A DNA stretch of 64,000 bases. It comes from Nitrospiria bacterium. Lineage in GTDB: Bacteria; Nitrospirota; UBA9217. The DNA is taken from NCBI GenBank assembly GCA_919901555.1, contig CAKKPG010000003.1, forward strand, positions 1-64,000. Direction: 5' to 3'. The position numbers and the translations under genes were made by a program. Positions 4,967-40,528 of the stretch are shown here, in pieces. Below the pieces are notes generated by a model that did no database searches, was not told the DNA's origin, and saw only the letters and a program-made list of their open reading frames with translations. The stretch's first letter is position 1. Each line of letters opens with the position of its first letter.

Positions 4967-5046
4967 TGGACCAAGGCAACCGAGTTGCCGTTTTTTGGAC
5001 CCAGGCGCTCATGCCTTGCCTACGCCGACATGGTCGGCTCGGTCCA
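4967..5046. repeat. Cloverleaf-forming 80-bp repeat, copy 1 (ccsA-resB spacer)
   Basis: Terminal inverted repeat TGGACC...GGTCCA closes three hairpins: GGCAAC-cga-GTTGCC (4975-4989), AGGC-gctcat-GCCT (5003-5016) and GCCGAC-atg-GTCGGC (5024-5038). A T6 run (4991-4996) separates the first two. Copy 2 lies at 40446-40528 in the same orientation. It starts two bases after the ccsA stop codon and ends four bases before the resB ATG. Confidence 0.8.
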
Positions 5047-5048
5047 TA

Positions 5049-5750
5049 TCAAAACTCATGGGAGCTCTTCATCAAGAGCCCCACTCCTGCATAGGTGAAC
5101 ATCACGATCACGAAGCCGATGATCCCCAGCCACACGACGCTGCGGCCGGACCAGCCGCGGACGAGCCGCGCGTGAAGATACAGGCCATACCAGAACCAGA
5201 CGATGGTGGTCCAGAGCTCCTTCGGCGTCCAGAGCCAGTACGTGCCCCAGGCGTAGTAGGCCCAGATGCCGCCGAAGATCATGGCAATGGAGAAGAGGAC
5301 GTACCCGAGCAAAAGGTTCCGGTATTGATCCGCTTCGTCCTCCTTCCGGCCATGCATGAGGAAAAGGACGCCGAAGACCGCGCCGAGAGCGAAGAGGGCA
5401 TAGGCGACGAATGACAGGATCACATGGAGCTCGAACCAGAGGGTCTTGAGCACCGGCGGCAGCGGCCCGTGCATCTGGGGCGCGGCGAGCGAACCGGCGA
5501 GCAAGAGCAGAATGAGCGGGATCGTAATGTATGAATACCAATCGCGCAGACGCTTCCAGCCGAAGATCAGGTAGGCCGCGCCGATGGAGAAGGCGAGAAA
5601 GCCGAGCGTGTCGTGGAGGCCGATGAGCGGAATCCTGCCGTACTTCACGGCCGACGCGGCAATGAGCGCTGCGTGAAGCGCCAGCGCCGCGAGGATGAGC
5701 CTCGTTCGATAGAGCGCCAGAGGATAAAGGATGAAGAGAGTTATTTCCAT
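5049..5750 (-). CDS. ccsA: CcsA/ResC-like heme handling protein
   Basis: A 233-aa multi-spanning protein of the CcmC/CcsA/CcmF superfamily that presents heme for cytochrome c synthesis in system II. At least six hydrophobic spans are visible. The tryptophan-rich WWD segment is present near residue 165 as WGTYWLWTPKELW, but the usual aspartate after the last tryptophan (W-D-P-K-E) is a threonine (codon ACG). Candidate heme-ligand histidines lie in FELHVILSF and LYLHARL. The start is at MEITLFILYP (5750); the longer open frame reads through an AT-rich intergenic repeat. First gene of the ccsA-resB pair. Confidence 0.85.
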   Translation of the reverse strand: MEITLFILYPLALYRTRLILAALALHAALIAASAVKYGRIPLIGLHDTLGFLAFSIGAAYLIFGWKRLRDWYSYITIPLILLLLAGSLAAPQMHGPLPPVLKTLWFELHVILSFVAYALFALGAVFGVLFLMHGRKEDEADQYRNLLLGYVLFSIAMIFGGIWAYYAWGTYWLWTPKELWTTIVWFWYGLYLHARLVRGWSGRSVVWLGIIGFVIVMFTYAGVGLLMKSSHEF

Positions 5751-5840
5751 AATTTTGCATTTTGCATTTTGAAATTTGACTTTTCCATTGCTTTCTTGGT
5801 GTCTTCGCGCCTTAGTGTCTTTGTGGCGGATTTTGTACCT
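5751..5840. repeat. Intergenic AT-rich repeat plus CACGGAG-family fragment
   Basis: A reiterated ATTTTGCATTTTGCATTTTGAAATTTG tract is followed by a gtgtcttcgcgccttagtgtctttgtgg fragment of the same type as the element at 4085. Both are common non-coding repeats in this window and inflate the apparent open frame of ccsA. Confidence 0.5.
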
Positions 5841-5847
5841 GAGACAC

Positions 5848-5881
5848 AAAAGGCATCCCAACTATCCGGGATGCCTTTTAA
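5848..5881 (-). terminator. Rho-independent terminator after the HU gene
   Basis: AAAAGGCATCCC pairs with GGGATGCCTTTT across an 8-nt loop, giving a 10-12 bp stem with A/T runs on both sides. It lies 30 bp past the HU stop codon and could also act on plus-strand transcription. Confidence 0.85.
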
Positions 5882-5910
5882 TGAGCCTTATGATATCTTG
5901 AAGAGTGAAA

Positions 5911-6198
5911 CTATTTCTTTCCGAGGATCGCCTCTTTTGCGGCCTTGGCAACGCGGAACTTCACGACCTTCTTTGCCGGGATCTTGATGGCCTCGCCGGT
6001 CTGGGGGTTCCGGCCCATGCGGGCCTTGCGGTTCACCAGCACGAGCTTGCCGAGCCCCGGGAGCGTGAAGGCGTTCTTTGCCTCCTTGTAGGCCAGCGCT
6101 GCCAATTCTTCCAGGAACTGCACTGCTACTTTCTTCTTAAGGTCCACCTTCTTCGCAAGAGCATCCGCAATCTGAGACTTCGTCATGGCTTTTGCCAT
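5911..6198 (-). CDS. hup: HU-family DNA-binding protein
   Basis: A 95-aa bacterial histone-like protein that bends and compacts DNA in the nucleoid. It starts MAKAMTKSQIADALAKK and carries the HU signature in the beta-arm region (GKLVLVNRKARMGRNPQTGE), where the conserved RNP segment intercalates DNA. A lysine-rich tail ends it. The ribosome site AAGGAGG is 8 nt before the ATG. A clear sigma70 promoter (6273-6301) and a terminator (5848-5881) make it a complete monocistronic unit. Confidence 0.95.
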   Translation of the reverse strand: MAKAMTKSQIADALAKKVDLKKKVAVQFLEELAALAYKEAKNAFTLPGLGKLVLVNRKARMGRNPQTGEAIKIPAKKVVKFRVAKAAKEAILGKK

Positions 6199-6272
6199 AA
6201 ACTTTCCTCCTTAATATAATGAAATGTGAATTTTTCACTGCCGGGAAGGCAGTTTTACTGCGATTTTCTAAA

Positions 6273-6301
6273 AGTATATACACTCCATTTGAAAATAGCA
6301 A
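6273..6301 (-). promoter_or_regulatory. Sigma70 promoter of the HU gene
   Basis: On the minus strand, TTGCTA (6296-6301), a 17-bp spacer and TATACT (6273-6278). The leader would be about 70 nt and contains the AAGGAGG ribosome site. Confidence 0.65.
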
Positions 6302-6514
6302 GCGATTTTTTAAAAAAGTTTTTTTTGTGGTGATATTGTTCAGACCTTCTGTAGAGGAAAAAAGGGGCCTGTACGGGCGCTACGGAGAAAATGTTGGGCC
6401 CATGCTGCAGAAGTTTCAGGTCAGGGATTACGGGACCCTTGATAGGGAACCATATGCGGGTGACCCCATACCGTTCTGAACTGCGGCGCCGCATCCACGA
6501 TCATCTGCTGCCCG

Positions 6515-6928
6515 TTACGATCCCGATGGGGGCCTGCAAGCATTCTCCCCTGCCGGGCTTTTCCGCTCCAGTGCAGAGAGGATCATATCAAGGACCTTTT
6601 TTTGGCGGCCCTCGTATTTGTTCAGCACGGCCAGGCAACTGCCCATCGGAAACCGTTCGTGCAGATAGTCGGCATCGCGACCCGAGAGGATGATGATCCG
6701 GTTCTTGTCCACTCCCTTGGAAATGGCGTAGGAAAGGACCTTGGCGCCGTCCAGGCCGGGCATCTCCAGGTCGACGAGCATGAGATCGAGGTCATCGGTG
6801 ATGGAGGCCAGGCATTTTATCGGGTCATTACAGGTCAGGACATGGAGTCCGGGAAACCGTTCCTCCACGTACTCCTCGAGCAGCTTCAAAAACGCCGTAT
6901 CATCGTCGATCAGTAAAATCTTCCCCAT
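6515..6928 (-). CDS. Stand-alone response regulator receiver protein
   Basis: A 137-aa CheY-like receiver domain with no output domain. Acidic pocket DDD (residues 8-10), phospho-acceptor Asp53 in LMLVDLEMPGLDG, the switch Ser82 (ILSGRDAD) and the conserved Lys104 (LNKYEG) are all present, so phosphorylation is expected. The C-terminal 20 residues are low-complexity. No histidine kinase is adjacent and the flanking genes are not chemotaxis genes, so the partner is elsewhere in the genome. The ribosome site is weak (GGGCAGAAG). Confidence 0.85.
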   Translation of the reverse strand: MGKILLIDDDTAFLKLLEEYVEERFPGLHVLTCNDPIKCLASITDDLDLMLVDLEMPGLDGAKVLSYAISKGVDKNRIIILSGRDADYLHERFPMGSCLAVLNKYEGRQKKVLDMILSALERKSPAGENACRPPSGS

Positions 6929-7054
6929 CTTCTGCCCGCCTTTTTTCGTTTTTCAAAACAGCGACGAGCTCCGCCGTCATTATGAGAGGAAAATTATCAA
7001 CATCTTAATTACTTCGGTCTGGCTCCTTACCGTTCCCTAAGATAGTCGCGGCGG

Positions 7055-7894
7055 TTACGATTTCGAGACAGCCTGCTTCCCGCCCGGCTTCGCAGAGAGC
7101 GCGATGTCCACGACATTGCGCACGAACTGCTCGTCCGCTACCCCGTGCACGGCCTCTTCCGGGAACTCGACAAGGGAGCGGAAATGCGCGGCGACCTCCC
7201 GGAAGAGTTCCACCCGCGCATCGGGGTCGAGTTCATCCCGCCGCAGCAGGGCCTGCACCGCGATCCCCGCCTCCCGGGGCGTCACGCGCTGTCGCAGGCG
7301 GCCGGCAAGGTGCGGGTATTCGCGAAGGGAATTGTACTTTCCGGCCAGGAGCTGCTCCAGGTCCGGGTCCGCGACCTTCGGGTTCCGGACGACAATGGTA
7401 TTCGCGGCGATGTCTCCCAGGCGCTGGCTGCGACGGCCCACGAGGCACGCGATCCCGCCGACCGCGTAAAGCGCCGGCAGGGTGTCCACGAAGCGCATGA
7501 GGTTGCGGATCACGACCTGGCTGGGCTGGAGCCGGAGTCCCTGAGCGTCCATCACCCGGAGCCGCAAGATCCGCTTCCCGATGGTCTGCCCGCGCCAGTA
7601 CCATTCCGCCGCGATCCCGTACCCGATGGAGATAAAAAAGTACGCCAGGACCGTGAGCGCGCGGGAAAAATCCGGGCTGATGACGCCCGCAAGCCCGAGC
7701 GCCGCGCCGGCCACGCCCGACGCCGCTACGATGCAGGCGAAGTCGATCCCCCACGCGAGGAACCGGGTCACCGGCCCCGCGAGGAGCAGGGAAAAGACGA
7801 TGCCCTCGGGTGTACGGATGAGGAGGGTGCCGGTCTTCTCCCTCTGCGTTGCCCGGTCCCCGTTCGCCGGATCAGCCGCGTCTGCGTCTCTCAT
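7055..7894 (-). CDS. RDD-family membrane protein
   Basis: A 279-aa protein whose first 200 residues form an RDD domain (PF06271): GPVTRFLAWGIDFACIV with the Arg and Asp that name the family, a middle span, and the QTIGKRILRLRVMDAQG segment with a further conserved Arg. The C-terminal third (after ADPDLEQLL) is cytoplasmic and helical. The start at MRDADAADPANG overlaps the SpoIIM gene by 23 nt; the longer frame is antisense-like low-complexity sequence. It is the last gene of the coupled MoxR operon. RDD proteins may act as transporters or membrane scaffolds; the substrate is unknown. Confidence 0.8.
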   Translation of the reverse strand: MRDADAADPANGDRATQREKTGTLLIRTPEGIVFSLLLAGPVTRFLAWGIDFACIVAASGVAGAALGLAGVISPDFSRALTVLAYFFISIGYGIAAEWYWRGQTIGKRILRLRVMDAQGLRLQPSQVVIRNLMRFVDTLPALYAVGGIACLVGRRSQRLGDIAANTIVVRNPKVADPDLEQLLAGKYNSLREYPHLAGRLRQRVTPREAGIAVQALLRRDELDPDARVELFREVAAHFRSLVEFPEEAVHGVADEQFVRNVVDIALSAKPGGKQAVSKS

Positions 7895-8909
7895 GCCCGT
7901 CCTTTCTCTGCAAAGCCTTCGTCTCGTTCGCCCCTGATACGCCGAGGTACAGGACGAGGAGGAAGAGTTCGACCAGGGAGAAGCCGATCTTGAACGAATA
8001 CGGGAGCACCGGCTCATGGTACTGGGAGATGAACGCCTCGATGAACCCGGCCCAGACCAGCATGAGCGCCACGCCGGCGCCGAGGATGACAAGGTCGCCG
8101 GAGACCTCCCTGAGCCGCATCCGGAGCGACTGACGGCTGCCTCTGCCGATGAGCGCGGCAGCCAGCGCCAGCCCGGTCTGACCGGCAAGGAGGAGCGCCG
8201 GGATCTCGATCACGCCGTGGGGCGACAGCCACGCAAGGAGGAATGTGGACTGCCCTGCCCGCACGTAGTCCAGCGCCACCGCGCCGAGGATCACGCCGTT
8301 GTAGAACAGCATGATCACCGTGCCCACGCCCCAGGTCACGCCCAGGGCCATGGTGAAGATGCTCACTTTGGTGTTGTGGGTCATATACCATGCGGCCCCG
8401 GTCATCTTGACGCCCTTCAGCCGGTCCCTGGTCGCCTTTTCCTCGGCAGCCACGCGCTCGGACGGGCTCCCCTGAAGATGAGGGAACGGCAGCAGGACCT
8501 CCTTGGCGTCAGGATCGAGACCCACGGACGCCCCGCCGAACGCGATCCCGGCCAGGGTGATCGCGAGCGACAGGAGGAACGCCCGTATGTGCCGGCGGAA
8601 CGTCCGGGGAAAGGTCTCCCTAAGCCACCGGAGCGGGGCAAACCGGTGCGGCGTGTCCCGGGTCTCATGCACCTCGCCGTACGCGCGGCCTACCAGGGAC
8701 TCGAGATAGCGGTGGGTCTCCGGGTCGGACGCGAACGTCGCGATCTTCGCGAGGTCCGCGGACGTCCGCTGATACAGGTAGTGGAACCGCTTTGCGTGCT
8801 CCAGGTCCATCCGGCGCTCCGGGTCGTTCTCGAGCGCGTCGAGCACGGCCTCAAGCTCTTTCCAGGAGTGTTTCTCCTCGGTGATGAATTTCTGGAGGTC
8901 GATGATCAT
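7872..8909 (-). CDS. SpoIIM-like (DUF95) membrane protein
   Basis: A 345-aa stage II sporulation protein M family member. The N-terminal 100 residues are soluble and helical (KFITEEKHSWKELEAVL, YQRTSADLAKIATFASD), followed by five to six membrane spans from residue 108 onward (AFLLSLAITLAGIAFGG, GVTWGVGTVIMLFYNGVILG, LSPHGVIEIPALLLAG). The HGVIEIPA motif is typical. No sporulation genes are present; in non-sporulating diderms this family accompanies MoxR/DUF58 genes. Its ATG overlaps the DUF58 stop codon by 4 nt. Confidence 0.85.
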   Translation of the reverse strand: MIIDLQKFITEEKHSWKELEAVLDALENDPERRMDLEHAKRFHYLYQRTSADLAKIATFASDPETHRYLESLVGRAYGEVHETRDTPHRFAPLRWLRETFPRTFRRHIRAFLLSLAITLAGIAFGGASVGLDPDAKEVLLPFPHLQGSPSERVAAEEKATRDRLKGVKMTGAAWYMTHNTKVSIFTMALGVTWGVGTVIMLFYNGVILGAVALDYVRAGQSTFLLAWLSPHGVIEIPALLLAGQTGLALAAALIGRGSRQSLRMRLREVSGDLVILGAGVALMLVWAGFIEAFISQYHEPVLPYSFKIGFSLVELFLLVLYLGVSGANETKALQRKDGHERRRRG

Positions 8910-10258
8910 AGGGCCTGCCTCTGCTTCACGGCCACGTACTCAGAAACCAACCGGCCGCACAGGACCTCGCTGTCGATGAGCGAGAAGCGCACGCCCCGCC
9001 GCTGGAGGGATTTTTCCAGTTCGCGAAGGTTGCGCCACAGGAGGTGGCCGCCGAGACCCTGGTACAGGTCGTCAAGAGACTGCGCATCGGGGTCGGAAAA
9101 GAGCGGCTGCACGCGCGGCTGCCTCAGCATGGCGACCAGCACAAGGTGCTTGCGCCTGATCAGCTCCACGTTCCGCTCGAAGCTCTCGGCCACGATCGGG
9201 TCGTCCAGGTTCGTGAGGAAAATAAGCAGCGCCCTTCGCCGCAGGCGCATGCCGAGAAAGGAGCAGAGCTCGTCGAAATCCGGGGTGACGGTCTGCGGCT
9301 GGAGCCGGTAGAGCGCGTCGCGGCAAAGGTTGTAGTGCGCCCTGCCGCTCTTCGCCCGCAGGAAACCGTGCACCCGGTCGCTGAAGGTGACCATGCCGAA
9401 CAGATCGCCCTGCCGCTCGGCCGCCGTGCCCATGATGAGCCCGGCGGTGATGAACCGCTCGAGCACGGTCTCCGGATACTCCCGCGGCTCCCCAGGCACC
9501 GCGGTGCGGGAGGTGCGGCCGCTCAGGCGCGACGCGTCGATGATGACGTACACCTCCTGCGTCCGCTCGATCTGGAACACCTTGGTCACCGGCCTGCCGC
9601 GCTTGGCCGTGGTCTTCCAGTGGATGTGGTCGAAACCGTCCCCGTGGACATACTCGCGCAGCTTTTCGAACTCCCGGCCCTCCCCCACCTGGCGCTGCGC
9701 GTGGAGGCCGAAGTTCCCCCGGTTCAGAAAGAGGGCCGCGAGGTTCTTCCGTTCCGCGAGAAGGTTGGGATACACGCGGACCTCGCAGCGGATGGGCACG
9801 GCCAGCCGGCCGGCCCACAACCCGAGGGGCGAGACGCCTTCCAGGTAGCAGGCGTCGAGGACATACCTGCCCCGCTTGAGCGGTGTGCACGGCCAGCGGA
9901 AATGCAGCGCCTCGCCCTTCGGCGGCAGCGCTGCGGAAAGGTGCTCGTGCGGCGTGGCGATCTGGCGCGGAAAGGCCAGGCCGATCCGCAGCTGCCGGGC
10001 CCTCGCGCTGCCGGACCTCACCAGGAACCCGACCTCTCCTTCCCGGTCCCTGGCCAGCCGGACGGTCTCGGGGAAATCAACGCTGACGCCGCGCACCGTA
10101 TTCCCGGCAAAGAGCGCATCGAGCGCAGCCGCCGCGAGAAACGCGCCGATGACCGCTGCCGAGAGCATTGCGGCGGACGGCACGGCAGCCCCCAGGGCCG
10201 CGAACGGAAGCACCGTGACCGCGGTCCAGAAGAGCATTCTGTTCGCGGGCACGATCAT
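8906..10258 (-). CDS. DUF58 domain protein, partner of MoxR
   Basis: A 450-aa protein with two N-terminal membrane spans (about residues 8-50), a middle beta-rich region, and the DUF58 core with the signature VGEGREFEKLREYVHGDGFDHIHWKTTAKRG region (about residues 192-222). A von Willebrand A-like segment follows: VYVIIDASRLSG carries the DxS metal-site start. DUF58 proteins pair with MoxR ATPases, probably as substrate or adaptor. Its start overlaps the moxR stop (ATGA) and its stop overlaps the SpoIIM start, so translation is coupled on both sides. Confidence 0.9.
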   Translation of the reverse strand: MIVPANRMLFWTAVTVLPFAALGAAVPSAAMLSAAVIGAFLAAAALDALFAGNTVRGVSVDFPETVRLARDREGEVGFLVRSGSARARQLRIGLAFPRQIATPHEHLSAALPPKGEALHFRWPCTPLKRGRYVLDACYLEGVSPLGLWAGRLAVPIRCEVRVYPNLLAERKNLAALFLNRGNFGLHAQRQVGEGREFEKLREYVHGDGFDHIHWKTTAKRGRPVTKVFQIERTQEVYVIIDASRLSGRTSRTAVPGEPREYPETVLERFITAGLIMGTAAERQGDLFGMVTFSDRVHGFLRAKSGRAHYNLCRDALYRLQPQTVTPDFDELCSFLGMRLRRRALLIFLTNLDDPIVAESFERNVELIRRKHLVLVAMLRQPRVQPLFSDPDAQSLDDLYQGLGGHLLWRNLRELEKSLQRRGVRFSLIDSEVLCGRLVSEYVAVKQRQAL

Positions 10259-11220
10259 CGAGGGACGCCGATGGTCTTGAGGATGTTCCGGATCACTTCT
10301 TTCACCGTCATGCCTTCTATCTCGTAGTCGGGCCTGAGTATCAGGCGGTGCTCCAGCACCGGCACGGCCATGGACTTGATGTCGTCCGGAGTGACGAAGT
10401 CCCGGCCGTCGATGGCCGCCAATGCCCTGCCCGCAAGGACCAGGGCCTGGGTCGCGCGCGGGCCCGCGCCCACGAGCACGCTCTCGTGTTTGCGCGTGGC
10501 GGCAACGATGTCCACGATATAGCCGACCAGTTCCTCCTTCACCAGCACCGCTTCGAGGTCCAGCCGCAGCCTGGGCAGTTCATCCGCCGGGACGACCGTC
10601 TTGACGCCGCCCTTGGCCAGCACCTCCTCGGGAGACTCCCTGCCGAGCATGCGCTGCGCCAGGGCCAGCTCCTCGCCCCGGCCCGGATAGTCCATCGTGA
10701 TCTTGAGCATGAACCGGTCCTTCTGCGCCTCGGGCAGGGGATAGGTGCCCTCGTACTCGATGGGGTTCTGCGTGGCAAACACGGTGAAGTTGGGCGAAAG
10801 CGCGTGGGTATCGCGGTCGATCGTGACCGTCCGCTCCTGCATTGCCTGGAGCAGGGCCGACTGGGTCTTGGCAGGCGCCCGGTTGATCTCGTCCGCCAGG
10901 AGGAACGTGGTGAAGACCGGGCCCTTGACCAGGGTGAATTCGTTCCGCTGCATGTTGAACACGTTCGTGCCGGTCACGTCCGCGGGCATCAGGTCCGGCG
11001 TGAACTGGATCCGGCTGAACTCGCTCCCAAGCGCAACCGCCAGGGTCCTGACAAGGAGCGTCTTGGCAATGCCGGGCACGCCTTCGATAAGCGCGTGGCT
11101 GTTGGTGAAGATCGCGATGAGCGACTTGTCCACCGCGTCCGCCTGGCCGATGATGACCTTCGAGACCTCTTTCCTGGCCGCGGCCAGGACTTCCTTCAGG
11201 TGGTCGGTGTTCTTGTTCAT
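10255..11220 (-). CDS. moxR: MoxR-family AAA+ ATPase
   Basis: A 321-aa AAA+ chaperone-like ATPase (AAA_3 plus lid domain). Walker A is GVPGIAKT, Walker B LLADEINRAPAKTQSALLQAM, sensor 1 FATQNPIEYEGTYPLPEAQ and sensor 2 near GAGPRATQALVLAGRA. The family uses ATP to remodel or assemble partner complexes, here presumably the DUF58/DUF4350/DUF4129 membrane proteins. The start at MNKNTDHLKEVL has an AAGGAAA ribosome site and overlaps the DUF4350 stop by 4 nt; the much longer open frame upstream is a shadow of DUF4350. Confidence 0.95.
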   Translation of the reverse strand: MNKNTDHLKEVLAAARKEVSKVIIGQADAVDKSLIAIFTNSHALIEGVPGIAKTLLVRTLAVALGSEFSRIQFTPDLMPADVTGTNVFNMQRNEFTLVKGPVFTTFLLADEINRAPAKTQSALLQAMQERTVTIDRDTHALSPNFTVFATQNPIEYEGTYPLPEAQKDRFMLKITMDYPGRGEELALAQRMLGRESPEEVLAKGGVKTVVPADELPRLRLDLEAVLVKEELVGYIVDIVAATRKHESVLVGAGPRATQALVLAGRALAAIDGRDFVTPDDIKSMAVPVLEHRLILRPDYEIEGMTVKEVIRNILKTIGVPR

Positions 11221-12497
11221 GGCAATCGTTTCCTTTCCGATAAAAGTACGCTGATAGCCCGGTAGGCCTGTACGGGGTCCCGCTCTTTGGCGGGCCTTTT
11301 TTTCTCCGCGTCGCTGATCGCCTGCGCCCGATCGAGCTCGTCGCCCGAAAGTCCGGGCCGCTTCTGTAATGACTTTTTCCACTCCTCGAAGCAGACACCC
11401 AGTATCTCGCGGCCGGAGATCGTGCGGCGCAGCAGGCCCGAAAGCCCGGAGAGCGTGTCCCGACCCGACCACATACCCTGTTCACGGTCCCTGCGCTCGT
11501 CTTCGAACGGCGGGACAAGGCCCGCAAAGTTCTTCCAGATGAACAGCAGGGCAAGGAGAAGCACGCCGCCGAACATGCCGGTGAGTCGGTATTTTCGTCC
11601 GAGCGCCGCGATGCCGGGATTTTCCTGGATGCCGAAGTGTGTCTCGTCGAAGATCACCGTGCTGTTCCCCCCCACGAGCCAGGCAAGCAAATCAGGATTG
11701 CGCTCCTTACGCATGGCCTCATTGCTCACGAAATAGGTGTCGGTCGCGATCACGATCGTGCCCCTGCCGAACGAACGTTCGATCACAACGGGGCGGCTGT
11801 TCCGGTTGTACACAATCTTCCATTCCGTACCCGGATCCTTGAACGAGAGCCCGGTATGCCATGTCACGGACCCGGGAAGTTCGTGCGCGTCCGTTGCAAG
11901 GACCGCTGTCATCACGGCAACGCGGTCCTGCTTTTTCGGCGCCTCGTCCCGGACAACGCTGAATTTCCAGCGGTCTTCAAGCGATACCCATCGGGGCTTC
12001 CCTCCGCTTTCCTCGTCATCAGCGTCCTGGTCTTTTTCCCCGCCGGTCTTTTTTTGCGCCTGCTTCCCGCCTTCCTTCTCGTTCTTTTTCTCCGGCGCTG
12101 CTTCGTCCCGTTCTTTCTTCGGCCGCAGTCCCCTCTCCGGATAGAGCAGGATGACGAGCCGGCCACCCTCTGTTGCAAGCGCTTCCAGGGCCTTTGCCTC
12201 GCCCTCATCCACATACTCGAGGGAACGGGACGCTGTGCCGGGGAAAAGAACCGCCTTCGGACCGTTGTCGCCCAATTTCGGAAGCGCACGGTAATTGCGG
12301 CTGACCGTCATGCCCTCGATCCCTTCCAGACCCTCGTACAAAATCTTTGTCCCGAGGGGATCGGCCCGGAGCGATGAATAAACAGGATACACATCGCCTG
12401 CCTCGAACCTGAGGAGGAAGAGGTTCACTGCGCCCGCCAGAAACCCGGCCGCAAGGAGAACAAGCAGGATGTTATGAAAGCTTCGTGGTTTCCGCAC
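11217..12497 (-). CDS. DUF4350 domain-containing membrane protein
   Basis: A 426-aa protein anchored by an N-terminal span (NILLVLLAAGFLAGAVNLFLL) and a second span near residue 320 (FGGVLLLALLFIW). Between them lies a DUF4350/ThuA-like periplasmic domain interrupted by a very charged Lys/Glu insert (about residues 125-165). VIFDETHFG is a typical DUF4350 motif. I choose the GTG at 12497 (VRKPRSFHN); a second GTG at 12545 would overlap the upstream gene by more than 70 nt. This gene is standard in MoxR-DUF58-DUF4129 operons and the ATGA overlap with moxR supports joint function. Confidence 0.8.
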   Translation of the reverse strand: MRKPRSFHNILLVLLAAGFLAGAVNLFLLRFEAGDVYPVYSSLRADPLGTKILYEGLEGIEGMTVSRNYRALPKLGDNGPKAVLFPGTASRSLEYVDEGEAKALEALATEGGRLVILLYPERGLRPKKERDEAAPEKKNEKEGGKQAQKKTGGEKDQDADDEESGGKPRWVSLEDRWKFSVVRDEAPKKQDRVAVMTAVLATDAHELPGSVTWHTGLSFKDPGTEWKIVYNRNSRPVVIERSFGRGTIVIATDTYFVSNEAMRKERNPDLLAWLVGGNSTVIFDETHFGIQENPGIAALGRKYRLTGMFGGVLLLALLFIWKNFAGLVPPFEDERRDREQGMWSGRDTLSGLSGLLRRTISGREILGVCFEEWKKSLQKRPGLSGDELDRAQAISDAEKKRPAKERDPVQAYRAISVLLSERKRLP

Positions 12498-14154: not shown

Positions 14155-14477
14155 TCCGCCTCCCACCAGGAGCTCTGCCAGACCGTGCCCTCATGAAAGG
14201 ACGAGGGCAGGGAGAGAAGCGCCTGGCCGACGTAGTAGTAGAAGAGCCAGAGGACCATGAACCCGAAGAGGAACTGCGCCAGCCGCACCAGGCCGGCGAG
14301 GCGGAACCGCCTGGTCCGGGACGGCGCGAGGAGCTTCGCGATGCACGAGGCGCAGAGCAGCCGGTCGTCGTGCTCCACCACGCATTCGCGGCAGAAATAC
14401 CTGCCGCACTCCGGGCAGCAAGCCACGGCTTCGCGATGAGGATGGTTGAAACAACGCTGTGCGGCAAGGTCTTTCAT
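14151..14477 (-). CDS. Small B-box-like zinc finger membrane protein
   Basis: A 108-aa protein. Residues 9-45 carry a B-box-like cluster: C-x2-H-x7-C-x2-C (CFNHPHREAVACCPEC), then FCREC, EHDD and CASC, enough ligands for two zinc ions. A single membrane span follows (LAQFLFGFMVLWLFYYYVGQAL). This zinc-finger-plus-membrane design recurs in the gene at 15581, so the pair may be interacting scaffold proteins. Start and stop both overlap neighbours by 4 nt (ATGA). Confidence 0.75.
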   Translation of the reverse strand: MKDLAAQRCFNHPHREAVACCPECGRYFCRECVVEHDDRLLCASCIAKLLAPSRTRRFRLAGLVRLAQFLFGFMVLWLFYYYVGQALLSLPSSFHEGTVWQSSWWEAE

Positions 14478-15568
14478 CCTTCATTCCTGCCGCGCTCAAC
14501 CTGATCAGATGCGGAGAAGGGATGGGAGCGGGTCCGTACCCGCTCCTCTCGCCGGAAGGGCCCCAGAAGCGCGAGCCCTGCGATGCCCAGAGGGACAGAG
14601 CATACGATGGAAAAGATATAGAGGAACATGAGGAAGGGCTTGTCGAACGGAGAGAGGGATGACATCATCCGGTATATTGCCCACTGATCGTTCATTTTCT
14701 GCGCAACTTCCGGGTTAGTCACGAAAAGCGACATAAAGAACGCGTAGCTCATCGCAAACATCAGGATGACATAGGCCAGGGAAGACCACGTGACGGTACG
14801 CAGTCCCTTTCCCATGCCGCTGTCGTGCTGCTTGGCCAATGAGATGATGATCAAGATGCCGATCGCCATCATGAGCGCCGATCCGACCAAATCGAGCGCC
14901 ATGCTGGTGATGAAAATATCGGCCGCGCTGGCGGCCCCGTCCACCAGAAGAAGAAAGAAGAGGGCTGCGTGGATCCTGCCGCCATAGGGGGTGAAGGCTT
15001 TGGCAACAGGCGCCGCCGGTCCCCCCTGGCTCTCGGACCGGGGGAGGCCGGTGACCGCTGTTGCCCTGGCGCGCATTTCTTCGCGACTGATCGTGCCCTG
15101 GGCCGCTTCGATGAGCGGCCGCAGCCGCTCGATCACCTTGTTCGCCTTGCGCAGACGGTTGAGCGACGGCAGTTCCTCCCTGCTCACCGCCGTCTGGAGG
15201 TGAGTGATACACGTGGGGCCGCGGAGGATATTGGTCAGGAGGAGCACAAAAAAAAGCCCCGCTATCACCCAGAACACGACGGCCGCGTCCTTACCGGTGG
15301 TCGATGAAAGGGCGGCAAAGAAGCTGGCGAACAGGCTGAAGACGATGTTCCAGACCACGCCGCGGCCGGTCTTTCGCGTGAGGATCGCCTGGATGTCCCG
15401 ATAGTAGAACCGCTTGTAATCCTCAGTATAGCCGGAATTGTAGGCTAACAGGAGATGGTCCTTACCGGCCCAGAGCCGGGCCCGTATCCGGGCAACCGTC
15501 AGGACGAAACCTCCCCGTTTTCGTCCCCGGCCCGGCAGGCGATGATATTCTTTTTTCGGGTTTACCAT
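14474..15568 (-). CDS. Multi-span membrane protein of unknown function
   Basis: A 364-aa protein beginning with a basic cytosolic segment and a folded stretch (WAGKDHLLLAYNSGYTEDYKRFYYRDIQAI, about residues 33-65) that resembles a PH-like domain, followed by about seven hydrophobic spans (VVWNIVFSLFASFFAAL, AVVFWVIAGLFFVLLL, LVGSALMMAIGILIIISLA, PLGIAGLALLGPF). I do not recognise the family. It lies between the two B-box genes in the coupled operon and so probably belongs to the same membrane complex. Confidence 0.65.
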   Translation of the reverse strand: MVNPKKEYHRLPGRGRKRGGFVLTVARIRARLWAGKDHLLLAYNSGYTEDYKRFYYRDIQAILTRKTGRGVVWNIVFSLFASFFAALSSTTGKDAAVVFWVIAGLFFVLLLTNILRGPTCITHLQTAVSREELPSLNRLRKANKVIERLRPLIEAAQGTISREEMRARATAVTGLPRSESQGGPAAPVAKAFTPYGGRIHAALFFLLLVDGAASAADIFITSMALDLVGSALMMAIGILIIISLAKQHDSGMGKGLRTVTWSSLAYVILMFAMSYAFFMSLFVTNPEVAQKMNDQWAIYRMMSSLSPFDKPFLMFLYIFSIVCSVPLGIAGLALLGPFRREERVRTRSHPFSASDQVERGRNEG

Positions 15569-15580
15569 GTCAGCGGTTCC

Positions 15581-16141: not shown

Positions 16142-16151
16142 GGTTTCTCCA

Positions 16152-16291: not shown

Positions 16292-16303
16292 GGGAATTAC
16301 AAG

Positions 16304-17490: not shown

Positions 17491-17493
17491 AGG

Positions 17494-28276: not shown

Positions 28277-28293
28277 TGAAATCTCCTTATTGT

Positions 28294-28340
28294 AAATTGA
28301 AGATTGAAAATTTTAAATTTGCAATTTCCAATTTTCAATG
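28294..28340. repeat. AT-rich palindromic repeat (TTGAAAATT family)
   Basis: A TAAATTGAAGATTGAAAATTTTAAATTTGCAATTTCCAATTTTCAAT-type tract in the porA-porB spacer. Related tracts occur at 5751-5780, 30423-30465, 30495-30532 and 33740-33786. Confidence 0.55.
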
Positions 28341-28343
28341 CGG

Positions 28344-29531: not shown

Positions 29532-29532
29532 G

Positions 29533-30398: not shown

Positions 30399-30422
30399 AA
30401 GAACCTCCCCGCTAATAGCTTA

Positions 30423-30534
30423 TTGAAAAATGAAGATTGGAAATTTTAAATTGAAAATTGTTTGCGCTGTAAACAAAGCGCCGAAGGCGCACCACAAATT
30501 TACAATCTACAATTTCCAATTTTCAATCTGCAAT
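30423..30534. repeat. Two facing TTGAAAATT-family tracts upstream of porC
   Basis: AAATGAAGATTGGAAATTTTAAATTG (30428 on) and TTACAATCTACAATTTCCAATTTTCAATC (30499 on) are inverted relative to each other and could form a long AT-rich hairpin between recR and porC. Confidence 0.5.
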
Positions 30535-30553
30535 GAGTCCCGCAAGGCGGGAC

Positions 30554-31309: not shown

Positions 31310-31343
31310 CGTTTAACCCGGCGTTCTCGGCAATAGCCTGTGT

Positions 31344-31664
31344 TTACATCAGCCCCGGGGGAAGCCCCATGCCCGCGGTGAGCCGCGCCATCTCTTCCTT
31401 CATGAGCTCCTGAGACTTCCTGAGCGCCTCGTTGATCGCGGCCAAAATGAGGTCCTGGAGCATTTCGATGTCCTTCGGATCAACGACAGAAGGGTCTATC
31501 TTGATGGAGAGCACTTCCTGGCGGCCGTTGGCAACCACCGTCACCATCCCGCCGCCGGCGGACGCCTCTACGGTCTTGCTCCCGGCTTCCTCCTGGAGCT
31601 TTTTTACCCGCTCCTGCATCTGCTGGGCCTGCTTCATCAAATTATTCAATAAGTTTTTAGACAT
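31344..31664 (-). CDS. ybaB: YbaB/EbfC nucleoid-associated protein
   Basis: A 106-aa protein: [20 protein letters not shown] helix, the central [21 protein letters not shown] beta unit and [22 protein letters not shown] helix define the YbaB/EbfC family, dimeric tweezers that bind DNA. The Met-rich, Gly-ending tail (GMGLPPGLM) is typical. It lies between dnaX and recR, the order conserved in most bacteria. Confidence 0.94.
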
Positions 31665-31783
31665 AGAGGTAAAGGGATAATATAGTAAAAGAATTTCTGC
31701 GGCATTGCAAGTAAAAATGCGGGTTTTTATGAAGGTATAAAAAAAATAAATGCTGTTCTCCGCCGCCCGGCGCCGTCTGCTCC

Positions 31784-33421: not shown

Positions 33422-33613
33422 ACCCTTCCTCTCAACTCAACCGCCTGCCGAAGATGAGCACCCTATGAAGCCGATGGACAGGAATACTATAAATCATTAC
33501 GAGAAAAAGGGGAAGAGGAAAGAGTGAGAAAACGAGAGGAGGCGGACTGCCGTGGACGGCGGTTTCCCTTTCCCCGTGCTCCGGCTGTTTGATACGGTTG
33601 AGAAAAAAGCTCA

Positions 33614-33717
33614 TTCGCCCGGGCTTCCCTGCGGCACACCCGGAACCCGTTTACCGCTGCTTCCTTCCGGACCTGACGGGGTTCACGGGACCGCGGTTGC
33701 GCAGGACCCGGGCGCAT
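33614..33717 (-). ncRNA. ffs: Signal recognition particle RNA (4.5S, bacterial small type)
   Basis: On the minus strand the universally conserved SRP core GTCAGGTCCGGAAGGAAGCA with the GGAA tetraloop is present near 33658-33678, enclosed by a long helix whose ends pair (CGCCCGGG with CCCGGGCG, 33616-33623 and 33707-33714). Length of about 100 nt matches bacterial 4.5S RNA. It binds Ffh to target membrane proteins. It sits between tRNA-Ser(GGA) and dnaX, as the scr gene does in Bacillus. Confidence 0.92.
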
Positions 33718-33739
33718 GAGCGCTATAATCGTAACGCAT

Positions 33740-33785
33740 TGGAAATTTTAAATTTGCACTTTCCAATTTTCAATTCTTTTCAAAT
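33740..33785. repeat. TTGAAAATT-family tract
   Basis: GGAAATTTTAAATTTGCACTTTCC followed by AATTTTCAATTCTTTTCAAATTGG between ffs and tRNA-Ser(GGA); the same family as 28294 and 30423. Confidence 0.5.
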
Positions 33786-33873
33786 TGGCGGAGAGGGTGG
33801 GATTTGAACCCACGTTAGGTTTCCCTAAACACGCTTTCCAAGCGTGCGCCTTCAGCCGCTCGGCCACCTCTCC
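33786..33873 (-). tRNA. tRNA-Ser(GGA)
   Basis: An 88-nt class II tRNA with acceptor GGAGAGG/CCTCTCC, discriminator G, anticodon loop TTGGAAA (GGA), a long variable arm (TTTAGGGAAACCTAA) and an encoded CCA. One of four serine tRNAs in this cluster. Confidence 0.97.
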
Positions 33874-33968
33874 GGTACTACCATTTTCAGTTGTTAGTTC
33901 TCAGTTCTCAGTTCCCCGCAACAACGTTCGACAATGAACTCAGAACTCAAAACTAAGAACTGGTTTAT

Positions 33969-34058
33969 TGGCGGAGAGGGAGGGATTTGAACCCCCGGTG
34001 GAGTTACCCCCACAACAGATTTCGAGTCTGCCGCCTTCAACCACTCGGCCACCTCTCC
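33969..34058 (-). tRNA. tRNA-Ser(CGA)
   Basis: A class II tRNA with acceptor GGAGAGG/CCTCTCC, anticodon loop CTCGAAA (CGA), variable arm TGTGGGGGTAACTCCAC and encoded CCA. Separated from tRNA-Ser(GGA) by an AGTTCTCAG-type repeat (33890-33962). Confidence 0.97.
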
Positions 34059-34124
34059 CTGTTTCACAAGTCTATGGAGTCTAATGAGTCCTACGGGTCT
34101 AAAGAGTTTTTGTTCGTTGACTCA

Positions 34125-34622
34125 TCAAACTCTCAACTCGTTAGACTCCTGAGAGTTCTTTCTTAATTTCTCAAAGAACCCCTGAAGCACCGCCCGGCAC
34201 TCGGCCTCGAGCACTCCGGGGGTGATTCTATACACGTGGTTCAGCCTGCCGTCGCGGACGACGTCGTACACCGAGCCGAGGGCTCCTGCACGGGCATCGC
34301 GGCACCCATAGACAAGCCGGCCGACCCGCGCGAGCACCAGGGCCCCTGCGCACATAAGGCAGGGCTCAAGGGTCACGTACACCGTTGCGTCCTGCAGCCG
34401 CCACCTGCTAAGCTGCGCTGATGTCTCGCGCAGGACGATGGATTCGGCATGTGCCGTGGGGTCCTGCCATGTCTCGCGCATGTTGTGCGCCGCGGCAATG
34501 ACCTCGCCGCCGATGACGAGGACTGCGCCCACCGGCGTCTCACCCCGGGCTGCGGCCTTTTCCGCCTCTGCCAGCGCAAGGCCCATGAAGTCTTCGTCGG
34601 TTTTATGCGCCGCGTGATTCAT
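34125..34622 (-). CDS. tadA: tRNA adenosine(34) deaminase TadA
   Basis: A 165-aa zinc deaminase that converts A34 to inosine in tRNA-Arg(ACG). The active site is visible: PTAHAESIVLRE with zinc-ligand His and proton-shuttle Glu (about residues 78-80), and TLEPCLMCAGALVLARVGR with the two zinc-ligand cysteines. Length is typical. Its only universal substrate, tRNA-Arg(ACG), is encoded 155 bp upstream on the same strand. Confidence 0.95.
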   Translation of the reverse strand: MNHAAHKTDEDFMGLALAEAEKAAARGETPVGAVLVIGGEVIAAAHNMRETWQDPTAHAESIVLRETSAQLSRWRLQDATVYVTLEPCLMCAGALVLARVGRLVYGCRDARAGALGSVYDVVRDGRLNHVYRITPGVLEAECRAVLQGFFEKLRKNSQESNELRV

Positions 34623-34776
34623 CGGTTCAACTCAAAAGCATGTTGAGCACGAATGACGCACCTGAACGAATTACACGAATAGCTCTTCCGGTATCAATTC
34701 GTGACATTCGCATATTCTCGCGATTCGTGTCCTGTATTGTTTCCGCGTTCTCTGCGAACTCTGCGGTAAAAAGCTG

Positions 34777-34853
34777 TGGTGCGCCCAAGAGGATTCGAAC
34801 CTCTGGCCTACGGATTCGTAGTCCGTTGCTCTATCCAGCTGAGCTATGGGCGC
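34777..34853 (-). tRNA. tRNA-Arg(ACG)
   Basis: A 77-nt tRNA with acceptor GCGCCCA/TGGGCGC, D arm TAGCTCAGCTGGATAGAGC, anticodon loop CTACGAA (ACG, A34 to be read as inosine after TadA action), TPsiC loop GGTTCGAATCC and encoded CCA. Confidence 0.97.
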
Positions 34854-34923
34854 AAAAGGAGCAGGCACGGACGCCGGGGCGTCAATGCCTTTCGGTAACG
34901 GATGACCCTTTACTCCCGGCGCG

Positions 34924-35424
34924 TTACTTCGATACGCCGCCGACGAGTTTGATGCCGATCTTCTCGTGGGAGAAGGGATGCATCTCCGGCTGCAGGGAGA
35001 ACAGCCAGCCCTTCCAGACGGATTTCCCGTTCTCCACAACGTCAATCTGCGCCGCGGGCATGGTGGGCTTGTCGGAAGCTGAAGTGATCTCCTTGTCGCC
35101 CATCATGAAATGCGGCAGGAACGTCAGCACCTTGACGGTAATATTCGCGTTCGGAACGGCAAGGTCGCCGCCAACGTTCACCGTGTATTCTTTCGACGTT
35201 TTTGCGGGCTTATCGTCGATCACGAGTTTTACGGCCTTCCACTTCGCCTTCACCTCTTTGGGCACGACGATTGTGCGCTCCACCTTCGGCATACCGGCCG
35301 GTGGCATCCCGCTCTCCATCCCCGGGTGCCCCGGAGGCAGCTGCGGCTTTTCCTCTTTTTTCTTGCATCCTGCGAAGGTGAACACCAGCCCAGCAACCAA
35401 AAGCAGCGTAACGAGCTTCTTCAT
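34924..35424 (-). CDS. DUF2155 lipoprotein
   Basis: A 166-aa lipoprotein: lipobox VFTFAGC with Cys20, a Lys/Glu/Pro-rich linker and a DUF2155-like beta domain (KAVKLVIDDKPAKTSKEYTVNVGG, LTFLPHFMMGDKEITSASDKP, VWKGWLFSLQPEMHPFSHEKIG). Such proteins are found in the envelope of proteobacteria and relatives with unknown function. It interrupts the tRNA cluster, between tRNA-Arg(ACG) and tRNA-Ser(GCT). Confidence 0.8.
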   Translation of the reverse strand: MKKLVTLLLVAGLVFTFAGCKKKEEKPQLPPGHPGMESGMPPAGMPKVERTIVVPKEVKAKWKAVKLVIDDKPAKTSKEYTVNVGGDLAVPNANITVKVLTFLPHFMMGDKEITSASDKPTMPAAQIDVVENGKSVWKGWLFSLQPEMHPFSHEKIGIKLVGGVSK

Positions 35425-35526
35425 CAGTCATATCCCCCTTTGCAAAAATTCATTTTTTGACCTCGCTGAATCGCGCGACTTTGCGGTACCCTTCGTTCGT
35501 GAACAGCGTCCTCGGAATTACAATAC

Positions 35527-35616
35527 TGGCGGAGAGGCCGGGATTCGAACCCGGGGTGGAGTTTCCCCCACAACTGCTTAGCAGGCAGCTGCCTTCAGCC
35601 GCTCGGCCACCTCTCC
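35527..35616 (-). tRNA. tRNA-Ser(GCT)
   Basis: A class II tRNA with acceptor GGAGAGG/CCTCTCC, anticodon loop CTGCTAA (GCT, reading AGC/AGU), variable arm TGTGGGGGAAACTCCAC and encoded CCA. Confidence 0.97.
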
Positions 35617-35619
35617 GTT

Positions 35620-35700
35620 TTCAATTGCGGATTGCGAATTGCGGATTACGGATTTATGTTTTTCATTCCGCAATCCGCATTCCGAAATCCGCAATTATGT
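35620..35700. repeat. TTGCGGATT inverted-repeat tract
   Basis: ATTGCGGATTGCGAATTGCGGATTACGG is mirrored by CCGCAATCCGCATTCCGAAATCCGCAAT, giving a long imperfect hairpin that fills the spacer between tRNA-Ser(GCT) and tRNA-Ser(TGA). Confidence 0.6.
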
Positions 35701-35701
35701 T

Positions 35702-35787
<86 letters not shown>

Positions 35788-35824
35788 GGTTTGAGTCTTT
35801 TGAGTCTTACGAGTCTCCTGAGTC

Positions 35825-37141
<1,317 letters not shown>

Positions 37142-37168
37142 TTAAGGTAACACGCTCCTTACATGTTG

Positions 37169-37963
37169 TCAATAGCTTTTCTTCATGATCCTGGTCTCGA
37201 GCGCCTTGATCTTGATCTGGATGGCCTCGCGGTTCGGATAGGCGGGTTCGATCTCTTTGTAGAGCTTGAGCGACTCGCTCAGCTCCTCTCTGGCCTCGAG
37301 GCAGCCGGCGAGGGCGAACTTGGTCTTGACCGCAAGTTCGTTGTCCGTGCTCTTCTTCAGGGCCTTGCGGTAATAGGCTTCGGCATCGTCGAGCCTTCCT
37401 TTGGAAAAGGCCGTGGTGCCGAGCCGGAAGTACGCAAGTTCCGCCTGGGGCCCGTTCGGGAATTCTTTTACCTGGCGGGCCCAGGTTTCTCCGGCCTCGT
37501 CGATCTTGCCCAGGCGGAAAAGGTTGTCCGCGAGGCTGTAAAGGCTTTTTTCCCGCACCTCGCGGTTGGAGTATTCCGCGGCCTTGCGGTACTCGACAAT
37601 GGCCCGTTCGTAATCGTTATAGCCCAGTTCGTAGATCTGGGCTATATAGAGCTGTGAGGCCGGCGCCATGTCGCGGTGCGGGTATTTTTTGAGCGCGAGC
37701 CCGAGCGTCTGGAGGGCCCGCTCGGTCTGTCCGAGGTAGAGGAACTGCGTGACGCCGACCCAGTAGAGCGCATTGTCCGCGTAGGGGCTGAAGGGATGGT
37801 TCTTGGCGAGCTCGATGTACATCGAAACGGCCGCCTGATAATCACCGGCGTTCCAGCGCCTGGTCGCTTCCTCGTATTCGGTCGCGGCCTTTTTGTCAAG
37901 GGCGTCGCAGCCGATGAGGAGCAGCGCGCAGAGAAGAAAAACAATTGCTGCTTTCCGTGCCAT
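37169..37963 (-). CDS. TPR lipoprotein, BamD/CpoB-like
   Basis: A 264-aa lipoprotein: lipobox LLLIGC with Cys19, then tandem TPR units (AATEYEEATRRWNAGDYQAA, DNALYWVGVTQFLYLGQTERAL, SLYSLADNLFRLGKIDEA, AELAYFRLGTTAFSKGRLDDAEAYY). Such proteins scaffold outer-membrane or septal peptidoglycan machinery. It starts 2 bp after the gyrA stop, so it belongs to the gyrA transcript. No BamD-specific motif can be claimed. Confidence 0.78.
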   Translation of the reverse strand: MARKAAIVFLLCALLLIGCDALDKKAATEYEEATRRWNAGDYQAAVSMYIELAKNHPFSPYADNALYWVGVTQFLYLGQTERALQTLGLALKKYPHRDMAPASQLYIAQIYELGYNDYERAIVEYRKAAEYSNREVREKSLYSLADNLFRLGKIDEAGETWARQVKEFPNGPQAELAYFRLGTTAFSKGRLDDAEAYYRKALKKSTDNELAVKTKFALAGCLEAREELSESLKLYKEIEPAYPNREAIQIKIKALETRIMKKSY

Positions 37964-37965
37964 GA

Positions 37966-40431
37966 TTACGCGTTCCCTGCCGCCGGAGCCCCGGGCGCTT
38001 CCTTCTCGTCCTCTCGCTCCACCACCTTGGCGAGGCTCACGACCTTGTCTCCTTCTTCCGTTTCGAGCAGGCGCACGCCCTGGGTGTTCCGCCCCTGGAC
38101 CGTGATGTCCTTGGACCGGGTCCGGAGTATCTTGCCGTTGCTGGTGATCAGGAGGATTTCGTCCTCTTCCGAGACCTGGGCCATGCCGACCACCCGGCCG
38201 TTCTTCTCCGTCGTCTTGATGGTGATGATGCCCTTGCCGCCCCTGCCCTGGCTCCGGTAGTCGTCGAGGGTGCTCCGTTTTCCATAGCCGTTCTCGGTCA
38301 CCGTCAGGATCGTGGAGTCGTCGCGCACGATCTCCATGCCGACGACCCCGTTCCCTTCGTCGAGCCGCATGCCGATGACGCCTTTGCCCGTGCGGCCGAT
38401 CTCGCGGACGTCGGCTTCGTTGAAGCGGATGGAGAGGCCGTCGCGGGTGCCCAGAAACACGTCCTGCTTGCCGTCGGTCACCTCGGCCGCGATAAGCTCG
38501 TCGCCCTCTTCAAGGGTGATGGCGATGATGCCCGACGGCCGGGGGTGGCTGTAGGCCTCGAGCTCGGTCTTCTTGATGATGCCCTGCTTCGTGGCCATGA
38601 GGATGAAGTGGTCCGGCGTGAATTCACGCACCGGCAGCGCGGCCGTTACCCGCTCGTCCGTGCGGATCTGGAGCAGGTTCACGATGGCCTTGCCCTTGGC
38701 CTGCCTGCCCGCCTCGGGGAGCTGATGCACCTTGAGCCAGTATACCCGCCCCTTGTTCGTGAAGAAGAGGATGTAGCTGTGCATGGTGGCCATAAAGAGC
38801 CGTTCCACGAAATCCTCTTCCCGGGTTTCCATGCCGATCTTCCCCTTGCCGCCGCGCTTCTGGGCGCGGTAGATCGTAAGGGGGTTGCGCTTGATGTAGC
38901 CTGCATGGGAGATGGTGATCACCATCTCCTCGTCCTTGATGAGGTCTTCGATGTCGATCTCGGTGGACGCGGCGACGATCTCCGTCCGCCGGGGATCGCC
39001 GTATTCCGCTTTGAGAGCAAGCAGCTCGTCCCGGATGATCTTCATCACGAGGGCGTCGGAAGCAAGGATCTCGTTCAGGCGGGCGATTTCCTTGAGAACT
39101 TCTTCGTACTCCTGGATTATCTTGTCGCGCTCGAGGCCCGTGAGGCGCTGGAGCTTCATGTCCAGGATGGCCTGGGCCTGAAGGTCCGAGAGCTTGAATT
39201 CCCGGATGAGGCCGGTCCTGGCTTCTTCGGGGTTCTTGGACGCCTTGATGAGCGCGATCACCGCGTCGAGGTTCTCCAGGGCGATCTTCAGGCCCAGGAG
39301 GATGTGGGCGCGCTCCTCGGCCTTCCGGAGGTCGTACCGCGTCCGGCGCACCACCACCTCCCGGCGGTGCTGGATGAAGCTGGACAGGAGCCTGCGCAGG
39401 TTGAGGACCCGCGGCTGGTTGTTCACGAGGGCCAGCATGATCACGCCGAAGGTGGACTGCATGGCCGTATGCTTGAAGAGCTGGTTCAGGACGACGTTCG
39501 TGATCTCGCCGCGCTTGAGCTCCATCACGATCCGCATGCCCTCGCGGTCGGACTCGTCGCGGATCTCTGAGATGCCGGTGATTTTCTTCTCCTGCATGAG
39601 CTCGCCGATCTTCTCGAGCAGACGGGCCTTGTTCACCTGGTAGGGAAGCTCGGTGACGATGATGCTTTCCCTGTCCCCCTTGCCCGGCTCGATGAACGCC
39701 CGCGCACGCATGTGGATGATGCCCCTGCCGGTGGTGTAGGCCTGGCGGATGCCGTCGATGCCGTGGATGAATCCGGCCGTGGGAAAGTCCGGCCCCTTGA
39801 TGGCGGACATGAGCTCCTGCACCGTCACCTCGGGGTTGTCGATCATCATCACGAGACCGTCAATGACTTCCGGCAGATTATGGGGCGGAACGTTCGTTGC
39901 CATGCCCACGGCGATGCCGGCGGAGCCGTTAATAAGCAGGTTCGGCACGCGGGTGGGCAGCACCGAAGGCTCGACCGTGGTGTCGTCGAAGTTCGGGACG
40001 AATTCCACGGTCTCCTTGTCGATGTCGGCGAGCAGCTCTTCCGCCAGTTTCGTGAGCCTGGCCTCGGTGTAGCGGTAAGCCGCTGCCGGGTCGCCGTCCA
40101 CCGAGCCGAAGTTGCCCTGGCCGTCCACGAGCGGGTAGCGCATGTTGAAGTCCTGGGCCATGCGCACCATGGTATCGTAGACCGCGCTGTCGCCGTGAGG
40201 ATGATATTTCTTCAGGACCTCGCCCACCACGCCGGCGCTTTTGGAATATTTCTTGTTGTGCAGGAGCCCTTCGCGGAACATGGCGTAGAGGATGCGCCGG
40301 TGCACGGGCTTGAGCCCGTCCCGCACGTCCGGCAGCGCCCGCCCTACGATCACGCTCATGGAGTAATCGAGGTAGGCGGTCTTCATCTCCTGCTCGATGT
40401 TGATCTGTGTTTTTATTTCCTGTGGTTCCAT
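37966..40431 (-). CDS. gyrA: DNA gyrase subunit A
   Basis: An 821-aa gyrase subunit that cuts and reseals DNA. The quinolone-resistance region reads [18 protein letters not shown] with the usual Ser and Asp, and the catalytic Tyr lies in [14 protein letters not shown]. The C-terminal beta-pinwheel contains the GyrA-box AQKRGGKG. The ATG at 40431 (MEPQEIKTQ) has only a weak purine-rich ribosome site (AAAGAAAG); an upstream in-frame TTG lies inside the cloverleaf repeat. The gene follows gyrB, with only that repeat in the spacer. Confidence 0.97.
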
Positions 40432-40445
40432 AGGCTTTCTTTTCT

Positions 40446-40528
40446 TGGACCAAGGCAACCATGTTGCCGTTTTTTAAGGTCGGCGATCACCTCGCCGCCT
40501 TTGACGCCGACATGGTCGGCTCGGTCCA
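40446..40528. repeat. Cloverleaf-forming 83-bp repeat, copy 2 (gyrB-gyrA spacer)
   Basis: TGGACC...GGTCCA ends enclose GGCAAC-cat-GTTGCC (40454-40468), GGCGA-tcacc-TCGCC (40482-40496, extendable by AAGG/CCTT) and GCCGAC-atg-GTCGGC (40506-40520). The middle arm differs in sequence from copy 1 (4967-5046) but is still paired. It begins two bases after the gyrB stop codon. Confidence 0.8.

Follow-up and report, generated by a model that had tools for sequence, protein, structure and literature searches.

The window, by which we mean the whole 64,000-nt stretch of Nitrospiria DNA that was analysed, carries two copies of a short inverted repeat in operon spacers, which were both confirmed at 4967-5046 and 40446-40528. 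Copy 1 lies between a CcsA/CcsB-like gene (ccsA) and a ResB-like gene (resB) and copy 2 between gyrB and gyrA, and at both sites the orientation of the copy follows the flanking minus-strand genes. The ends TGGACC/GGTCCA and the arms GGCAAC-nnn-GTTGCC and GCCGAC-nnn-GTCGGC are present in both copies just as the first-pass annotation of this DNA had described them. Each copy had also been placed two bases after the upstream stop codon; the adjacency holds but the distance does not, since the unit is 2 nt longer on each side. Including the flanking T-N and N-A, copy 1 extends over 4965..5048 and copy 2 over 40444..40530, both on the minus strand. Copy 1 starts immediately 3′ of the ccsA stop codon and ends 2 nt 5′ of the resB ATG, and copy 2 starts immediately 3′ of the gyrB stop codon (40531-40533) and ends 12 nt 5′ of the gyrA ATG.

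Both copies look like A-B′-B arrays of REP halves in which B′ has decayed. In copy 1, half A (5022..5046, minus strand) reads TGGACCGA-GCCGAC-CAT-GTCGGC-GT, and half B (4967..4991, plus strand), which is inverted relative to A, reads TGGACCAA-GGCAAC-CGA-GTTGCC-GT; the corresponding halves of copy 2 lie at 40504..40528 (minus strand) and 40446..40470 (plus strand, again inverted). The A end of both copies is TGGACC, compared with TGGAGC in the family unit. The middle segments (4992..5021 in copy 1 and 40471..40503 in copy 2, both on the minus strand) appear to be degenerate extra B halves, as none of 2000 shuffles scored as high in either case. That of copy 1 contains CGCCTGGGTCCAAAA, and CGGCGAGGTGATCGCC in that of copy 2 resembles the variant B half CGGCGATATGATCGCC from the array of a relative. 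The changed but still pairing middle arm had been read as compensatory evidence, an argument that is not supported, because the two arms are not homologous between the copies and each is most likely a decayed third half.

As RNA, the two copies fold stably (z of −3.6 and −7.7), and the long A-B hairpin is the minimum-energy fold of the gyr copy. The ccsA-resB and gyrB-gyrA messages would carry the transcribed element as a hairpin, and this may, or may not, affect the expression of gyrA or resB. A function as intrinsic terminator was rejected, because the T-run 3′ of the B hairpin is found on the antisense strand only.

A dispersed family of paired REP halves

Approximately 35 sites of the family were located in the 3.45-Mb genome of the window by pattern, relaxed half-site, flank and covariance-model searches, counts that rest on genome search. 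The exact two-part pattern had 20 genome matches and its reversed-pattern control had none, which indicates that the repeat is not due to chance; the covariance-model search proposed in the first-pass annotation did find further copies, with 33 matches at E ≤ 0.001, in which some sites are counted on both strands. Most sites are intergenic, and the family therefore has the REPIN character of dispersed, multi-copy and mainly extragenic palindromes.

The basic unit of approximately 55-59 bp pairs REP half A with a related half, B, that faces the opposite way; its consensus is TNTGGAGCRA-GCCGAC-nnn-GTCGGC-GT ... AC-GGCAAC-nnn-GTTGCC-TYGGTCCANA. In each half, the head (TNTGGAGC/TGGACC) and RA precede a 6-bp stem that closes a loop of 3 nt, and the spacer between A and B varies from 1 to 11 nt (mostly 4-9 nt) in an alignment of 60 copies, the short variable spacer between inverted halves being again that of a REPIN. 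Conservation extends 2 nt further on each side than the ends first described, with T at −2 in 33/33 of the genome’s own copies and A at +2 in 93% of 28, and some sites have additional halves, which form A-B-B and A-A-B arrays. A protein-coding reading of the repeat (frame MERADRVGVxxGNxVALVQ) was rejected as a general explanation, because spacers of 1-11 nt break the frame.

Covariation was evaluated on 60 distinct copies with 500 shuffles. When two separate hairpins were assumed, six pairs had changes on both sides (18 cells) and 0/500 shuffles reached the covariation score, while slid structures gave only 0-2 such pairs. Variants such as GTCGAC/GTCGAC, GCCAAC/GTTGGC, GGGAAC/GTTCCC and GGCGAC/GTCGCC were found among the stems; the outermost stem is the weakest, its fifth pair being mismatched in 40/60 copies. 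Compensatory changes thus preserve the stem of each half, as in REPINs; true compensatory changes are found within the two outer hairpins and not in the middle arm, for which they had been proposed. The long A-B hairpin had no covariation in the 60-copy alignment (496/500 shuffles reached the score) and was rejected as a conserved structure; its pairing reflects the common ancestry of the halves.

Distribution, placement and orientation

The element has a patchy distribution across phyla: it occurs in 6/14 genomes of the host family and in 0/134 other genomes sampled from the phylum, and unrelated Deltaproteobacteria carry many copies. The exact half-site pattern, searched in GTDB genomes, matched several Nitrospirae and Deltaproteobacteria MAGs, and family members were identified in the Nitrospirae GWC2_56_14 and GWC2_57_13, in the deltaproteobacterium GWF2_42_12 and its relatives, and in the Desulfobacteraceae genome Eth-SRB1; about a dozen further matches, from actinobacteria and some other groups, are without the features of the flanks and were regarded as coincidental. 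At the syntenic gyrB-gyrA spacer a copy is found only in the window’s genome, with a decayed copy in GWC2_57_13, and at the ccsA-resB spacer likewise only in the window’s genome, with a decayed A half in GWC2_56_14. Other sites are common to two genomes each, which makes them older. The comparison gave no exact empty site, as the relatives’ spacers hold other content with no clean junction, and the boundaries of the element and the absence of a target duplication were therefore deduced from its flanks.

The A end points upstream in 58/61 codirectional gene pairs (24:1 in the window’s genome, 23:1 in the Deltaproteobacteria set and 11:1 in other Nitrospirota), and the gene upstream of the A end is codirectional in 32/33 of the genome’s own copies; these numbers use codon-model gene calls made in this analysis, and the copy sets include some orthologous sites, so that the counts are not fully independent. 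In 18/33 of the own copies the element starts 0-4 nt after a stop codon. Placement is therefore far from random relative to both stop codons and transcription, which agrees with the preference for stop-codon-proximal sites and the fixed orientation that had been suggested from the two window copies. Proximity to stop codons is a known trait, since REPs have been reported near the 3′ ends of upstream genes, where they may supply stop codons (PMC3733652). The kind of element is thus known, and within the open-access library searched we found no description of this sequence family, of its cross-phylum spread or of its fixed, one-way orientation.

Copies are also translated in frame, namely in LptD, peptidyl-tRNA hydrolase, a quinolinate-phosphoribosyltransferase-like protein, an AcrB-type transporter, an HhH-GPD protein, a BcrAD-type activase and an HSDR_N protein, as well as in a P-type ATPase in the window’s genome. 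Insertion in frame inside protein genes is likewise the habit of the Rickettsia palindromic elements (RPE). Differing from RPE, which are mentioned in PMC3733652, the family here has an unrelated sequence and most of its copies are intergenic. On contig C148 of the window’s genome (locus L034, 1052-1342, minus strand), a putative ThiS-like protein, named after its own sequence and its place before a ThiG-like ORF, has nine residues, VWSEPTVSA, read from a REPIN after Gly-Gly; the spacer of this copy is common to GWC2_57_13. ThiS normally requires a free Gly-Gly end, and processing of the REPIN-read tail or loss of function is conceivable.

RAYT genes flanked by the halves

In three genomes from two phyla (GWF2_42_12, GWC2_56_14 and Eth-SRB1), the halves flank a RAYT gene. 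The 181-aa RAYT ORF of GWF2_42_12 is preceded by an A half, whose start is 33 nt and whose end is 8 nt from the ATG, and an A-B doublet lies just 3′ of the gene. The protein scores 91.7 bits against the cut-off of 80 for NF047646 (NCBIfam REP-associated tyrosine transposase), matches Pfam Y1_Tnp, carries the motifs HUH (NHYHMM) and YIYYNP, and has 4er8, the E. coli TnpA-REP, as its sole PDB match (E=1.4e-10); the score above the cut-off and the HUH and Y---NP motifs place it in the RAYT/TnpA-REP family. Among the 21 genomes examined, relatives at 62-66% identity were found only in GWC2_56_14 and Eth-SRB1, both embedded in halves, and a truncated copy with 77% identity and B-type halves upstream lies on contig 13 of GWF2_42_12. 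Viral contigs yielded no relatives, and plasmids only E. coli-type rayT at ~27% identity.

Just upstream of the RAYT start in GWF2_42_12 (locus L081, 2600-2766), a B-type half and an A half stand in direct tandem, and three such halves in a row precede the truncated gene on contig 13 (see also locus L214). On contig 40 of Eth-SRB1 (about 658-716 kb), at least 10 REPIN copies are found within ~57 kb around the RAYT at 679.8 kb, which suggests local proliferation; clustering of repeat copies near their gene has been described for some RAYTs (PMC2817692).

In the window’s own genome, which is 96.5% complete, the RAYT search found no cognate gene, and its three Y1 matches are all of other kinds, without these halves. 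The Y1 transposase ORF in the window (174-959, minus strand) was rejected as the mover, as it is of a different subtype, has 20% identity and is flanked by other repeats: it scores 76.9 bits with NF047646, just under the cut-off of 80, and has inverted repeats (GGGTCGGACCAAG..) at 100-127 and 1003-1030. The unit at 100-1030 is more like the Y1 transposases with flanking TIRs (TIRYT; PMC6006769) than like the mover of the REPIN, and the string GGACCAAG, common to the GGGTCGGACCAAG repeats and the REPIN, is short and was not counted as evidence. Contig C20 of the same genome (locus L108, around 14262-14519) holds a broken Y1 transposase gene with an internal TGA amid a GGACCGTTCGGGGAACGGTCC-like palindrome family. 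The copies in the window’s genome are presumably relics, or were moved by a RAYT since lost or unassembled.

Based on these features, the family is assignable as a RAYT-linked REPIN and not as a GTAG REP. It resembles the REPINs of Bertels and Rainey (2011, PMC3116915) in its dispersed, mainly extragenic and RAYT-linked inverted REP doublets with a short variable spacer, but differs in that A is clearly distinct from B in sequence and each has a conserved stem of its own, the copies are fewer (tens), the orientation is fixed relative to transcription, and the window’s genome has no cognate RAYT. With RAYT/TnpA-REP and its REPs (REPtrons; PMC2817692, PMC8266576) it shares an HUH/Y1 gene flanked by halves, many loose copies and, in Eth-SRB1, the clustering of copies near the gene; however, in place of GT[AG]G it has the head TNTGGAGC, from which 2 nt separate the stem, and the hosts are Nitrospirota and Deltaproteobacteria MAGs. 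In codirectional pairs, copies of the GTAG- and CGTC-tagged REP superfamilies (PMC3733652) similarly lie near the 3′-end of the gene before them; some supply its stop codon and some are intragenic, but neither tag is present here: no GT[AG]G was found 0-2 nt 5′ of the stem, where the head is TNTGGAGC/TGGACC, and no CGTC, and the stem is 6 bp and not 8-9 bp long. REPs of described RAYTs usually carry one of these two heads.

Mobile element, regulatory RNA or hairpin slot

The repeats are very probably a family of REPINs that is linked to RAYT and has a non-canonical head, that is, a dispersed, small and non-autonomous element, and the mobile hairpin element envisaged in the first-pass annotation is borne out by the ~35 copies, the patchy distribution and the RAYT association. 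The lack of a cognate RAYT in the window’s genome, of a GT[AG]G or CGTC head and of an exact empty site speaks against this reading. Most likely, a RAYT-type HUH/Y1 transposase would bind the single-stranded hairpins and cut at their ends, and the doublet would then be moved or copied into other single-stranded DNA; harmless insertions would survive, for the most part in the few bases that separate a stop codon from the ribosome-binding site of the following operon gene, and now and then as in-frame stretches of proteins. Both the catalysis by RAYT and the single-strand mechanism are taken over from what its enzyme family would do.

The position between stop codon and ribosome-binding site, the stable folds of the window copies and the orientation fixed relative to the operon in 58/61 codirectional pairs could also be accounted for if the repeat were a conserved cis-regulatory RNA that determines, within polycistronic messages, how strongly neighbouring genes are expressed relative to each other. 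We consider this improbable, since the equivalent spacers of relatives mostly lack a copy or hold unrelated sequence, contrary to the conservation as an operon RNA that had been suggested, the genes beside different copies are functionally unrelated, copies also lie in frame within protein-coding regions, no Rfam match reached the gathering score, and the dispersal is explained by the RAYT association. It is highly improbable that the repeat is a MITE whose terminal inverted repeats are TGGAGC/GGTCCA and whose source is a DDE-type insertion sequence. Short terminal inverted repeats without coding capacity would fit, but the invariable T (−2) and A (+2) belong to the element and the flanks display no visible target-duplication pattern. 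Moreover, the Y1/HUH RAYT is the sole transposase gene that was found together with such ends, whole halves repeated in tandem, as in A-B-B and A-A-B, are what REP clusters typically contain, and no autonomous DDE element that has these ends and makes a duplication of constant length was seen.

Transposition alone leaves the near-absolute orientation relative to transcription unexplained. Selection might, as a tentative alternative that we rate as rather unlikely, favour some hairpin right after the stop codon in operon spacers, REPINs being one of several interchangeable palindromes. For the REPIN sites of GWF2_42_12, orthologous spacers of four relatives were folded, and 12/12 contain another, unrelated palindrome at this position, directly after the stop codon (z from −2.0 to −8.8, with 9/12 below −3), so that an effect of a spacer hairpin on the neighbouring genes is conceivable; but these sites were picked for carrying a REPIN in that one genome, and the palindromes could reflect either hairpin selection or the repeated use of a tolerant landing site. 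Moreover, the ccsA-resB or gyrB-gyrA spacer is free of hairpins in several Nitrospirota relatives (loci L190, L197, L165), and the share of hairpin-bearing codirectional spacers in Deltaproteobacteria (36/73, with this family left out) is similar to that in a small E. coli sample (6/14), for which reason a general hairpin excess is not claimed as a peculiarity of these genomes.

Species-specific imperfect palindromes of tandem short words (e.g. ATTACGATTTACGATTT) occupy the orthologous operon spacers of the Deltaproteobacteria relatives between the stop codon and the ribosome-binding site (palindrome-spacer loci L219, L221, L224, L226-L237 and L240-L242), and AT-rich palindromes of a similar kind lie in the window at 28277-28343, 30399-30553 and 33721-33775.

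If, as is probable, these repeats of Nitrospirota and Deltaproteobacteria are REPINs that are linked to RAYT and have a non-canonical head, they lie beyond the well-studied gammaproteobacterial cases, and three candidate transposases are identified for them. The difference between halves A and B gives the element a direction, and its orientation relative to transcription can therefore be read; the near-uniform orientation must be explained by target choice or by selection. It is doubtful, yet conceivable, that the bases after operon stop codons in these Nitrospirota and Deltaproteobacteria form a functional hairpin slot, in which some stem-loop is kept by selection, the sequence is freely replaced and one-way REPINs are one supply. 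Were this true, the orientation (58/61 pairs together with the in-frame copies) would reflect either selection that acts on the transcript or a targeting of single strands that is linked to transcription.
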